This document shows, in pieces, positions 8,462 through 18,410 of a DNA stretch of 64,000 nucleotides. The stretch comes from an uncultured Actinomycetes bacterium (GTDB lineage Bacteria > Actinomycetota > Acidimicrobiia > Acidimicrobiales > RAAP-2). The DNA lies in assembly GCA_903900235.1 (NCBI GenBank), contig CAIUMH010000134.1, forward strand, positions 1 to 64,000, given 5' to 3'. A program made the position numbers and the translations under genes. Numbering within the stretch: position 1 is the stretch's first letter; the number at the start of each line of letters is the position of its first letter. Below the pieces are notes generated by a model. It worked only from the letters and a program-made list of their open reading frames with translations. It did no database searches and had not been told where the DNA came from.

Positions 8462-8537
8462 GCTCCCATCGTCTAGTGGCCTAGGACGCGGCCCTTTCAA
8501 GGCTGAAACACGGGTTCGAACCCCGTTGGGAGCGCCA
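8462..8537 (+). tRNA. tRNA-Glu (anticodon UUC)
   Basis: The cloverleaf folds cleanly. The acceptor arm GCTCCCA pairs with TGGGAGC, the anticodon loop CTTTCAA gives UUC, and the T arm ACGGG-TTCGAAC-CCCGT is standard. A CCA end is encoded (8535-8537). It stands alone between the divergent P450 gene and the 3' end of the TauE/SafE gene. Confidence 0.95.
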
Positions 8538-12592: not shown

Positions 12593-12667
12593 GGACCTGT
12601 GGTGCAGTCTGGAGTGCACGCCGCCCTGTCAAGGCGGAGGTCGCGGGTTCAAATCCCGTCAGGTCCG
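12593..12667 (+). tRNA. tRNA-Asp (anticodon GUC)
   Basis: The acceptor arm GGACCTG pairs with CAGGTCC, the anticodon loop CTGTCAA gives GUC, and the T loop TTCAAAT is standard. CCA is not encoded (CTC follows the discriminator G). An AT-richer stretch with TAGAGTACT at 12541-12549 lies about 45 bases upstream and may be its promoter. It is followed after 36 bases by tRNA-Phe, probably on the same transcript. Confidence 0.95.
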
Positions 12668-12703: not shown

Positions 12704-12779
12704 GGTCGGGTAGCTCAGTTGGCAGAGCGCGCGCCTGAAAAGCGCGAGGTCACCGGATCGACGCCGGTCCCGACCACCA
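12704..12779 (+). tRNA. tRNA-Phe (anticodon GAA) with A at position 54
   Basis: The acceptor arm GGTCGGG pairs with CCCGACC, the D arm is GCTC/GAGC, the anticodon stem CGCGC/GCGCG holds loop CTGAAAA (GAA), and CCA is encoded (12777-12779). The T stem ACCGG/CCGGT closes a loop reading ATCGACG, so the nearly universal T54 is an A. All stems are intact, so this looks like a real tRNA with an unusual T loop. Confidence 0.92.
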
Positions 12780-15821: not shown

Positions 15822-16346
15822 CTAGAGCGCTTCGGCCCTGCGGACCTCGATCGCCAGGTCGGCCCGAGCCCGAGCGACACGTGACCGGATGGTGCCGATC
15901 GGCACCTCACAGGCGGCCGCAGCCTCGGTGTAGCTGAAGCCCAGCATCTGGGTCATGACGAAGGCGGTGCGGCGATCGTGGTCGAGGCCGTCAAGCAGGA
16001 CGGTCACGCCCGAAGGCGTGTGGTCGGCGGTCTGTATCCCAGTGAGGTGCTCGCCGACCAGCCGGTCGACGAGCCGTCGCGAGCGGTAGCTCTTGCGAAA
16101 GTCATCAGAGCAGGTCCGTCGGGCAATCCCGGCCAGCCAGACCTTGACCGGGCTGTCTCCTCGGAACTGCCCGAGTGCCTGGAGCGCACGCAGGTAGGTC
16201 TCCTGCGTGAGGTCATCCGCCTCGCCACGTCGGCCCACCAGCGAGCACAGCCGCCAGACGTCCTGCTGGGTGGCCCGAACGAAGGCGGCGATCGCACGGG
16301 GGTCGCCCGAACGCGCCTCGATCGCCAGATGGGTCACAGGATCCAC
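15822..16346 (-). CDS. ECF RNA polymerase sigma factor
   Basis: This is a group 4 sigma factor of 174 residues. The sigma-2 region includes the polymerase-contact stretch DLTQETYLRALQALGQFRGD. Sigma-4 contains the helix-turn-helix YTEAAAACEVPIGTIRSRVARARADL. The track opens at 16379. GTG 16346 is preferred because TAGCCT (16354-16359) lies seven bases upstream and the region before it is not conserved in ECF factors. It is divergent from a zinc-binding anti-sigma-like gene that carries an ECF-type promoter, so the pair probably forms an autoregulated switch for the downstream sco operon. Confidence 0.92.
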   Translation of the reverse strand: MDPVTHLAIEARSGDPRAIAAFVRATQQDVWRLCSLVGRRGEADDLTQETYLRALQALGQFRGDSPVKVWLAGIARRTCSDDFRKSYRSRRLVDRLVGEHLTGIQTADHTPSGVTVLLDGLDHDRRTAFVMTQMLGFSYTEAAAACEVPIGTIRSRVARARADLAIEVRRAEAL

Positions 16347-16395
16347 GGGGGTCAGGCTATCGTCAGGCCGCCAGACCAATCACCGCAATATTCCG

Positions 16396-16423
16396 GGAAC
16401 TTCTCAGCCCCGAGGGACGACTT
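16396..16423 (+). promoter_or_regulatory. ECF-type promoter for the anti-sigma/sco operon
   Basis: GGAAC at 16396-16400 and CGACTT at 16418-16423 are separated by 17 bases, matching the usual GGAAC and CGT-like elements of ECF promoters. The GTG of the anti-sigma gene follows seven bases later, so the transcript would be leaderless. It faces away from the sigma factor gene, whose own -10 (TAGCCT) looks housekeeping. Confidence 0.65.
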
Positions 16424-16430
16424 GTGTGAC

Positions 16431-17066
16431 GTGGATTGCACTCAAGCGATCGAGATCCTCTCGGCCGACCTCGACGGAGAGGCGGAGCTGACCGAGGTGG
16501 CGGCCGCCACCGCCCACGCGGCGCGATGCATGCCCTGCCGGTTCCTGCGCCGCGAGATGCTGCAGATGGATGCAACTCTGCGAGGCGATCCGGCGCCGCC
16601 CTCCCCTGACTTCGCCTCACTCATCGTCGATGCCACCAGGCGATCAGCCAAGATTCGCCGCCTCGTGGCTCGCGTGGCGCTGTTCGTGGTTGGCCTCGCG
16701 TTGCTCGCCGACGTGATCCCCCAGATCCTCGCCACCTCGAGTGATGCCCACATGGAGCACCACCTCGCCGTGTGGGGCCTCACCTTCTCCGTCGCACTGC
16801 TCACCATCGCCCTGCGGCCGTCGCTGTCTCGGGTGATCCGGCCGATCGCCACGCTGTTCGCCCTGTCGATGTTGGTGATCGCCGTCATCGACATCGGACG
16901 CGGCGAGACGCCGATGCTGGCCGAGACCCATCACCTTCTCGAGGTGGTAGGGGTCGCCCTGATCTGGGTGCTCTCCCTTCCGATCCGCACCCCGATCGAC
17001 GCCGCGCCCGCAGCCGGCCTGCGCCTCGTCACCGAGCCCGATGATGCCAGGACCGAGGCCAGCTGA
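16431..17066 (+). CDS. Zinc-finger anti-sigma factor-like membrane protein
   Basis: This 211-residue protein starts with a ZAS-type domain: Cys3, LSADLDGEAE, then HAARCMPC (His29, Cys33, Cys36), the H-x3-C-x2-C motif of zinc anti-sigma factors. Four hydrophobic helices follow (about 83-185). The track opens at 15978, but that part is antisense to the sigma gene. GTG 16431 begins VDCTQAIEIL and lies just after the ECF-type promoter. It probably holds the divergent ECF factor at the membrane and releases it on a redox or metal signal. Four helices are more than the one usual for this family, so it may sense something within the membrane. Confidence 0.8.
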   Translation: MDCTQAIEILSADLDGEAELTEVAAATAHAARCMPCRFLRREMLQMDATLRGDPAPPSPDFASLIVDATRRSAKIRRLVARVALFVVGLALLADVIPQILATSSDAHMEHHLAVWGLTFSVALLTIALRPSLSRVIRPIATLFALSMLVIAVIDIGRGETPMLAETHHLLEVVGVALIWVLSLPIRTPIDAAPAAGLRLVTEPDDARTEAS

Positions 17067-17089
17067 TGCCGGCCCCAAGGAGGACCCCC

Positions 17090-17863
17090 ATGCCCGCCAC
17101 CCAATCCGTCTCGTGCTGGATTCGCCGATCTATCCCCCTGCTGGTCGGCGGCATGCTGCTCGCCGCATGCTCGAGCACGCCACCCAAGCCTGCGGCGTCG
17201 ATCGGCACCGCTGGGACGCGCAACGTTCCTGCCGACATCGCGTCCATCCCGCTGACCACGCAGACCGGTGCCACCACCACCATCGGCAGCCTGGTCGGTA
17301 AGACGGTCTTCGCCGTTCCGTTCTTGACGCTCTGCCCAGACGTGTGCCCGTTCACCACCGGTAACCTGCTGAGCGTGCAGGCCTCCGTCGACGCAGCAAA
17401 GCAACGGAGCAACGTGGTGCTTCTCGAGTGGTCCGTCGATCCCGAGCGCGACACCCAGGAACGACTTGCCGCCTACGCCAAGATGGTTGGTGCGACCTGG
17501 ACCATGGTTCGCACCTCGCCGGCCAACACCACCAAGCTTGAGGCGTTCTTCGGTGCCACGGCCACTCGCCAATCAGTCGACGACCCGGCGCCCATCGACT
17601 GGATGACCCACCAGCCCATCACCTATGACGTCTCGCACTCCGACGGGTTCAACGTCATCAACACCAAGGGTGTCGAGAAGTTCATCTCCGGTGCCCCACC
17701 CGCCTTCCACGGCACCTTGAACCCGACGCTCAACTCCTACCTCTCGGCTGATGGCAAGGACACGCTCAAGAACCCGCCCAAGAACGGGTGGACACCATCG
17801 GACGCCCTCGAGGCCATTTCGTACGTGAGCGGCACGCAGATCTCCCTGAGCGCACCGAAGTGA
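17090..17863 (+). CDS. SCO1/SenC-family copper chaperone lipoprotein
   Basis: This is a thioredoxin-fold copper protein of 257 residues that likely loads the CuA site of cytochrome oxidase. A signal peptide ends in the lipobox MLLAAC (Cys27). The copper-binding CPDVCP motif lies in FLTLCPDVCPF, and the conserved distal histidine is probably in YDVSHSDG. ATG 17090 is preferred over the track start at 17066 because AAGGAGG precedes it at six bases. The gene follows the anti-sigma gene closely, so copper-enzyme assembly appears to be under ECF control. The CtaA/CtaB genes 10 kb upstream serve the same enzyme class. Confidence 0.88.
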   Translation: MPATQSVSCWIRRSIPLLVGGMLLAACSSTPPKPAASIGTAGTRNVPADIASIPLTTQTGATTTIGSLVGKTVFAVPFLTLCPDVCPFTTGNLLSVQASVDAAKQRSNVVLLEWSVDPERDTQERLAAYAKMVGATWTMVRTSPANTTKLEAFFGATATRQSVDDPAPIDWMTHQPITYDVSHSDGFNVINTKGVEKFISGAPPAFHGTLNPTLNSYLSADGKDTLKNPPKNGWTPSDALEAISYVSGTQISLSAPK

Positions 17864-17864
17864 C

Positions 17865-18410
17865 ATGAGCGCACGGACCCGAGCTTTCACCCTCGGCGGC
17901 ATCGCGCTGCTGCTGACGGCCAACCTCGCCATCGGCGTGGTCTTCCTCGTCAGCCGCCCGAACGCTGCCACGACGATGGTGATGCCCGCACACCCGATGG
18001 CCATGACTGGCCACACGATGAGCGCCTCGTCGTGCACCCTGGTCTCCACCACCCAGCTGGCGGCAACCGTCGGTCGGATCGTCGAGACGCCAGCGCCGCG
18101 ATCGAACCCGCGCGAGACGGTCTGCGTCTATCCCATCTCAAGCTCGGCCCAACGAGTCCGGATCACGTACTCGATGTTCGTCTCCCCACGCGGGTTCGCC
18201 CGATGGGCCAGTGACGTCACGGCCACCGGGCACCTCGCCCGACACCTCTGCGGCATCGGCGACTCGGCCTACCTCGCCACGGTGCCCAGCCGGCACGGGA
18301 GCGTCACCGCCCTGACCATGCTCGTCGGCTCGACCCAGGTGCTCATCGAGGCTCCGGCACCGGCCAGCCGGGTCACCAGCCTGGCCCATGCCCTGGTCCC
18401 GGCCGTCTGA
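17865..18410 (+). CDS. Secreted Met/His-rich protein, possible copper binding
   Basis: This 181-residue protein has one N-terminal hydrophobic segment (about 9-30), either an uncleaved anchor or a signal peptide. A Met/His cluster follows, MVMPAHPMAMTGHTM (38-52), of the kind seen in periplasmic Cu(I) proteins. The rest, with three cysteines (SSCTL, ETVCVYP, RHLCGIGD), loosely resembles DUF3558-like exported domains. It begins one base after the sco stop, so it is in the same operon. A role in handing copper to Sco, or in sensing copper, is inferred from the metal-binding cluster and context only. Confidence 0.7.
   Translation: MSARTRAFTLGGIALLLTANLAIGVVFLVSRPNAATTMVMPAHPMAMTGHTMSASSCTLVSTTQLAATVGRIVETPAPRSNPRETVCVYPISSSAQRVRITYSMFVSPRGFARWASDVTATGHLARHLCGIGDSAYLATVPSRHGSVTALTMLVGSTQVLIEAPAPASRVTSLAHALVPAV

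Follow-up and report, generated by a model that had tools for sequence, protein, structure and literature searches.

A SigC-type sigma factor and its four-helix anti-sigma probably control copper delivery in an actinobacterial genome

We describe a module that probably constitutes a complete SigC-type (ECF36) circuit for copper delivery, in which the sigma factor is freed on copper shortage; we put the probability of this reading at about 0.6. The window, that is, the whole 64-kb stretch of DNA that was analysed, is part of a 2.4-Mb genome (contig C134 of G000). Relatives of the module across actinobacteria share a near-invariant promoter, often adjoin copper-handling genes and include SigC of tuberculosis bacteria. 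Circuits of this kind are already known, and this member is new; it provides a clear case of a regulon with promoters positioned for leaderless messages. Together with its relatives, the module offers a candidate sensor that may be the regulator so far missing for SigC-type factors, with three residues to probe, and the promoter definition GGGAAC(C/T)-N16-CGAC(C/T), combined with the leaderless position, makes the regulon readable from genomes. Family membership, gene pairing, promoter conservation and geometry, the absence of Shine-Dalgarno sequences, the copper neighbourhoods and the invariant residues were observed by computation, and we infer sigma binding by the anti-sigma, metal binding, the direction of the signal and the function of the Met-rich protein.

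In the circuit we propose, the sigma factor would be made without autoregulation and kept at the membrane by the zinc-finger domain of the four-helix anti-sigma. The outer face of the anti-sigma (His107, Asp154 and His168) would sense extracytoplasmic copper, most likely with the metal bound at ample copper and with the site vacant under scarcity. Copper shortage would free the sigma factor, giving rise to leaderless transcripts from GGAAC-N17-CGAC promoters. The output in the window would be a single operon encoding the anti-sigma, as negative feedback, the copper chaperone Sco and an exported Met-rich protein whose probable role is to capture Cu(I) on behalf of Sco. The output of relatives would additionally include PCu(A)C, DUF1775 and other copper genes.

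Layout of the locus and its promoter

The module comprises the following features, each given with its basis:

15822..16379, minus strand: ECF sigma gene, SigC/ECF36 type (Pfam, PDB matches, tree)
16396..16423, plus strand: ECF promoter GGAAC-N17-CGACTT (direct reading and conservation across loci)
16431..17066, plus strand: anti-sigma gene, ZAS domain and four membrane helices (zf-HC2, alignment, AlphaFold, Foldseek, profile homology)
17090..17863, plus strand (longer start at 17066 possible): Sco (SCO1/SenC) lipoprotein gene (PF02630, motifs)
17865..18410, plus strand: gene for a membrane-anchored exported protein with the Met-rich segment MVMPAHPMAMTGHTM (gene order and Met-rich segment kept in relatives)

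An earlier note on this DNA had described a divergent ECF gene facing a zinc-finger anti-sigma with four helices, and here direct reading and family searches agree. The promoter it had placed seven bases ahead of the anti-sigma GTG is exact in its coordinates: read base by base, GGAAC at 16396-16400 is followed by a 17-base spacer, CGACTT at 16418-16423, seven bases and the GTG at 16431. The Sco lipoprotein that it had put downstream in the operon is borne out by a PF02630 match (E=7.5e-17), a LAAC lipobox at 17159, CPDVC at 17333 and DVSH, with its histidine, at 17627; CPDVC aligns with human SCO1, and both CxxxC and the distal His are present. This Sco protein is one of three in the genome. 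Judged by homologues, the ECF gene probably starts at GTG 16346 rather than at the listed TTG 16379, and the Sco gene probably starts at ATG 17090, which is preceded by AAGGAGG. No sigma-70 promoter or terminator pattern was found in the region, and an Rfam search returned only tRNAs. Three tRNA genes lie upstream of the module, at window positions 8462-8534, 12593-12667 and 12704-12776.

Conservation of the promoter was assessed with a loose motif set before the relatives were viewed (GGAA(C/T), a spacer of 15-19 and CG(A/T)C, within 160 bases upstream of the anti-sigma start). Of 42 loci, 35 have it ahead of the anti-sigma gene, compared with an average of 1.2 and never more than 5 in Markov controls; the loci cover about 20 genera, and eight of them are Amycolatopsis near-copies. 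GGAAC and CGAC are separated by a spacer of 17 in 34 loci, while each of the other spacers from 12 to 23 occurs in 0 to 4; in the nearest matches to the motif the spacer is 17 without exception. On the opposite strand, in the direction of the sigma gene, the loose motif was found in a single locus, and feedback is therefore predicted to run through the anti-sigma.

The distance to the start codon is mostly kept as well, with GGAAC starting 34-37 bases ahead of it in 26 loci and exactly 35 bases ahead in 21; the window, with GGAAC 35 bases before the anti-sigma GTG, has this arrangement. Since the -35 element of an ECF promoter usually begins about 35 bases ahead of the transcription start, the message is predicted to begin at the start codon. 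Shine-Dalgarno matches of at least four are found at 4% of the 47 genes with the motif at 34-37 bases, whereas the 406 remaining genes of these loci have them in 41% of cases (p=2e-9), and the anti-sigma GTG of the window has none at a usable distance. The transcript of the anti-sigma operon should thus be leaderless. Both the leaderless message and the drive of this promoter by the ECF factor had been put forward in the earlier note; the former is strongly supported by this geometry and by the scarcity of Shine-Dalgarno matches, and the latter by the retention of motif, spacer and placement before the anti-sigma gene in about 20 genera and before adjoining copper genes.

The promoter definition given above is a refined form of this motif, with 60 occurrences in 47 loci and none in 40 random windows of five related genomes; because it was defined after the loci had been seen, the figure of 35 of 42 deserves more weight as a test. 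In the window's own genome, the one-mismatch motif set is not enriched over a reversed control (50 versus 73), the refined motif is found 4 times versus 4 in the control, and exact GGAAC-N17-CGACTT occurs only three times. The pattern by itself therefore proves nothing. Apart from the anti-sigma operon of the window, matches at the leaderless position in this genome lie inside coding frames or lead to a 14-codon frame. A second GGAAC-N17-CGAC, at window position 17319 on the minus strand, lies antisense within Sco and precedes a frame of 84 codons by 36 bases; it is probably a chance occurrence.

The sigma factor, its anti-sigma and the mycobacterial fusions

The sigma protein (185 aa) consists of regions 2 and 4 only, with region 3 absent; in Pfam, Sigma70_r2 (E=8.6e-14) and Sigma70_r4_2 (E=1.4e-11) both score over the cut-off. 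Among PDB entries it matches 2o7g best, the sigma-2 domain of SigC from M. tuberculosis; the sigma-4 domain (2o8x) is also matched, and the SigC model ranks second among its NCBIfam matches. A maximum-likelihood tree unites the window sigma, the sigmas adjoining this anti-sigma and mycobacterial SigC in one group versus ten other ECFs, with a branch support of 94/96 and presence in 98% of bootstrap trees, which is good but not starred. In a first tree, long branches due to housekeeping sigmas and to a truncated row had mixed the groups, and both were left out of the tree used here. SigC has been assigned to group ECF36, in some members of which the sigma is fused to an anti-sigma that has DUF2275 and three to four membrane helices (PMC8999054). 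By sequence, the window sigma is a member of the mycobacterial SigC clade and hence probably of ECF36 type, an affiliation that adds to what the earlier note contained. A CorE-like copper sigma was also considered and rejected, since nothing follows region 4 in this protein that would resemble a Cys-rich extension.

In the anti-sigma (211 aa), C3, H29, C33 and C36 form a C-x25-HxxxCxxC pattern, and its zf-HC2 match (E=7e-4, 20.0 bits) falls just under the Pfam cut-off of 22.2. An AlphaFold model with a mean pLDDT of 89.8 contains three helices of a putative anti-sigma domain and four more (62-100, 106-128, 130-156 and 167-182). When this model was searched with Foldseek, the MucA and RsiW domains ranked first, with a probability near 1 and E values of about 0.3 to 1. 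Pfam gave no match of the protein to PF10039 (DUF2275), and a match to SLAC1 (E=0.006) was judged spurious.

Across an alignment of 42 sequences, C3, H29, C33 and C36 are invariant, and so are H107, D154 and H168 in the membrane part, the latter confirmed in a further alignment (A4). In the model, the second and fourth membrane helices begin with H107 and H168, respectively, and the third ends with D154. With the zinc finger placed in the cytoplasm, this helix order predicts an outer-face position for all three residues, as would be required of the ligands of a copper sensor, making them a candidate metal site. Zinc-finger anti-sigmas such as RsrA are redox sensors, and some anti-sigmas of the present kind adjoin thioredoxin-like genes (L124, L127). 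It could be argued from this that the signal is the state of respiration or extracytoplasmic redox, such as a failing aa3 oxidase or thiol oxidation, with the copper genes as its output. We regard this as improbable, given that the invariant histidine, aspartate and histidine of the outer face fit a metal ligand better than a redox switch and that the alignment contains no conserved cysteine in the membrane part.

The two proteins travel together. Searches for the sigma and, separately, for the anti-sigma retrieved the same 12 of 61 related genomes (hypergeometric p = 6e-13, a significance inflated by relatedness), and the genes lie side by side in divergent orientation at almost every related locus within the order, as they also do in many Actinomycetota outside it. 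The nearest named relatives having the anti-sigma are Acidimicrobiales. This pairing and co-occurrence suggest that the anti-sigma probably holds the sigma factor back. The corresponding protein of a low-GC actinobacterium has the anti-sigma's membrane part but no zinc finger, and its gene is divergent from an ECF gene and beside a DUF1775 gene (L128:6037-6519).

In one genus, which the blaC-sigC-cobK-cobM-cobL order (taken from the proteins) and an identity of up to 89% to the solved SigC domain indicate to be Mycobacterium, 42 of 149 genomes carry anti-sigma and SigC in one match that covers practically the full 457 positions, and in 39 of these no stop interrupts it. In other genomes, SigC stands alone or the anti-sigma lies a few kilobases off. 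Matches to zf-HC2, to DUF2275 and to the two sigma regions were found in the fused protein, and profile-profile comparison of the fused-type anti-sigma with the window family gave full-length homology at 99.9% probability. The outer loop of the fused versions is Met/His-rich (HGHDAMPGAPGTMAGAHLLHE in L129). Fused frames are found at L129:6047-7420 and L125:5287-6660 and in about 40 genomes of the genus; stops break the frame of about 457 aa in a few (G418, G441, G464 and G419). M. tuberculosis was not recognised among 397 genomes of the genus (best 89% to the solved domain), so that the absence of an anti-sigma there rests on the literature. Fusions of a SigC-type sigma to an anti-sigma were already known from a review (PMC8999054).

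Going further, it is tempting to regard the four-helix part as a ligand-gated copper receptor, in which copper bound by H107, D154 and H168 would lock the zinc finger onto the sigma factor and the loss of copper would free the sigma without proteolysis. The same receptor, separate or fused, might then govern SigC-type factors across Actinomycetota and have been lost in species with a bare SigC. We offer this extension tentatively and would not bet on it.

Copper genes and the direction of the signal

The earlier note had read the module as copper- or redox-responsive control of cytochrome oxidase assembly, and the copper theme of this reading has strong comparative support. Of 47 loci, 23 have copper-handling genes no more than about 6 kb from the anti-sigma, versus 0 of 40 random windows (p=3.4e-8), a comparison in which the related genomes are not independent samples. 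Control of the oxidase finds no such support: in the window's own genome, the motif is absent from the oxidase cluster (COX2, CtaG and a fused Sco) and from the vicinity of the fused Sco on contig C133. This promoter-free cluster (L292, G000:C133:37500-56000) encodes, besides CtaG, a 579-aa protein whose membrane N-terminal part is fused to Sco (MTGMGNG...) and which has relatives encoded next to the sigma pair in L021 and L025.

About half of the loci, including all those of Amycolatopsis, have no recognised copper gene nearby. Such loci, and the dependence among related genomes, would suit a general envelope-stress sigma factor to which copper genes are only incidentally close. This explanation seems to us very improbable, because copper genes recur although their kind, order and strand differ between lineages, and because the promoter precedes many of them at an unchanged distance from the start codon, whereas random windows have neither.

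The refined motif stands at the leaderless position before genes of the following kinds:

L017 and L113: Sco
L022 and L113: PCu(A)C
L018 and L118: DUF1775
L022 and L112: cytochrome c-Sco operons
L114: a lipoprotein gene beside a metal-type periplasmic binding protein

In the last of these, L114:9225-10375 encodes a lipoprotein with a Peripla_BP_2 domain (metal-chelate type) behind a leaderless-position promoter, possibly serving copper uptake. Two mycobacteria show the same arrangement, with the leaderless pattern before an anti-sigma gene and a PepSY_TM gene in G097; in G397 it precedes a gene for PCu(A)C and a further PepSY_TM gene that is divergent from SigC. Over these few genomes the raw count of the pattern is not above control, so that the weight lies on the identity of the genes behind it. 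The PepSY_TM proteins with a SigC-type leaderless promoter are at L284:1536-3038 and L290:1536-2933, one of them divergent from SigC. In addition, an unnamed exported family of about 340 aa, with the start ...ADPAGPTDY(R/Q/L)SEIV... and no Pfam match, accompanies the sigma pair and copper genes in about 14 loci (for example L017:3723-4715, L022:2935-3948, L113:8571-9605 and L119:808-1851) and may be an unnamed partner in copper handling.

The Met-rich protein of the window has seven Met and His in 15 residues, the top count among 228 window ORFs of at least 100 codons. The earlier note had called it a secreted Met/His-rich protein; the segment is confirmed, and, as a lipobox is absent and the only transmembrane segment is at the N-terminus, "membrane-anchored, exported" is a safer description than "secreted". 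Searches gave no Pfam match. A folded domain at 52-181 is predicted with confidence, and a fold search with it returned weak matches only (best 3v7b, E=0.005) and no known copper protein, so that we read no function from the fold. The order of Sco followed by the Met-rich gene is kept in two relatives of the same genus, G003 and G001, of which G001 is without the sigma pair. The segments of relatives differ and remain Met-rich (MVMPAHPMAMTGKTM; MSGMSMGGGAMGMVGSTM), with the histidines not all kept, a pattern that makes capture of Cu(I) for Sco plausible.

Met-rich exported proteins can also serve copper tolerance. This, and a CopA-type ATPase gene nearby in two relatives (L079, from the promoter-bearing Saccharopolyspora spinosa, and L080), would fit a circuit of the opposite sign, in which the sigma factor is freed by excess extracytoplasmic copper and Sco and the Met-rich protein buffer or detoxify it. 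We consider such a circuit unlikely. The nearby CopA genes are on the opposite strand and lack a motif at the leaderless position, whereas the genes that do carry the promoter are mostly of delivery or uptake types (Sco, PCu(A)C and the metal-type periplasmic binding protein in L114). Moreover, both literature systems respond to copper shortage (PMC7924339, PMC7337898). By gene content and by analogy with these two systems, copper limitation appears to be a likelier signal than excess. A release of the sigma factor on copper shortage is thus the reading we prefer.

Comparison with known systems

The window anti-sigma may share an anti-sigma domain with the class I proteins RsiW, MucA and RsrA, the MucA and RsiW domains being the best Foldseek matches of its model. 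RsiW has one membrane helix and RsrA none, whereas the window protein has four, with invariant histidine, aspartate and histidine predicted on the outer side. CorE of Myxococcus xanthus is, like the sigma factor described here, an ECF sigma tied to copper; in contrast, CorE senses copper via its own Cys-rich C-terminal extension (PMC10141476), and the window sigma has no extension and is paired with an anti-sigma.

In the SigC group itself, a close parallel in architecture is provided by the DUF2275-fused ECF36 proteins (PMC8999054), which share the zinc finger, the four-helix membrane part and the SigC-type sigma, with full-length profile homology. They differ in that the window has two separate divergent genes and an anti-sigma that scores below the Pfam DUF2275 model. 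In Corynebacterium glutamicum, the regulon of sigmaC, a possible member of this clade, is activated by copper deprivation or aa3-oxidase defects and, in contrast to the operon described here, consists mainly of cyd and cta/qcr genes (PMC7337898). M. tuberculosis SigC belongs to the same clade as the window sigma, its two solved domains are among the best PDB matches, and it shares the copper theme (PMC7924339). However, M. tuberculosis sigC has been described as monocistronic, with no known anti-sigma (PMC7924339), whereas the window sigma is accompanied by a divergent anti-sigma gene and a Sco operon.
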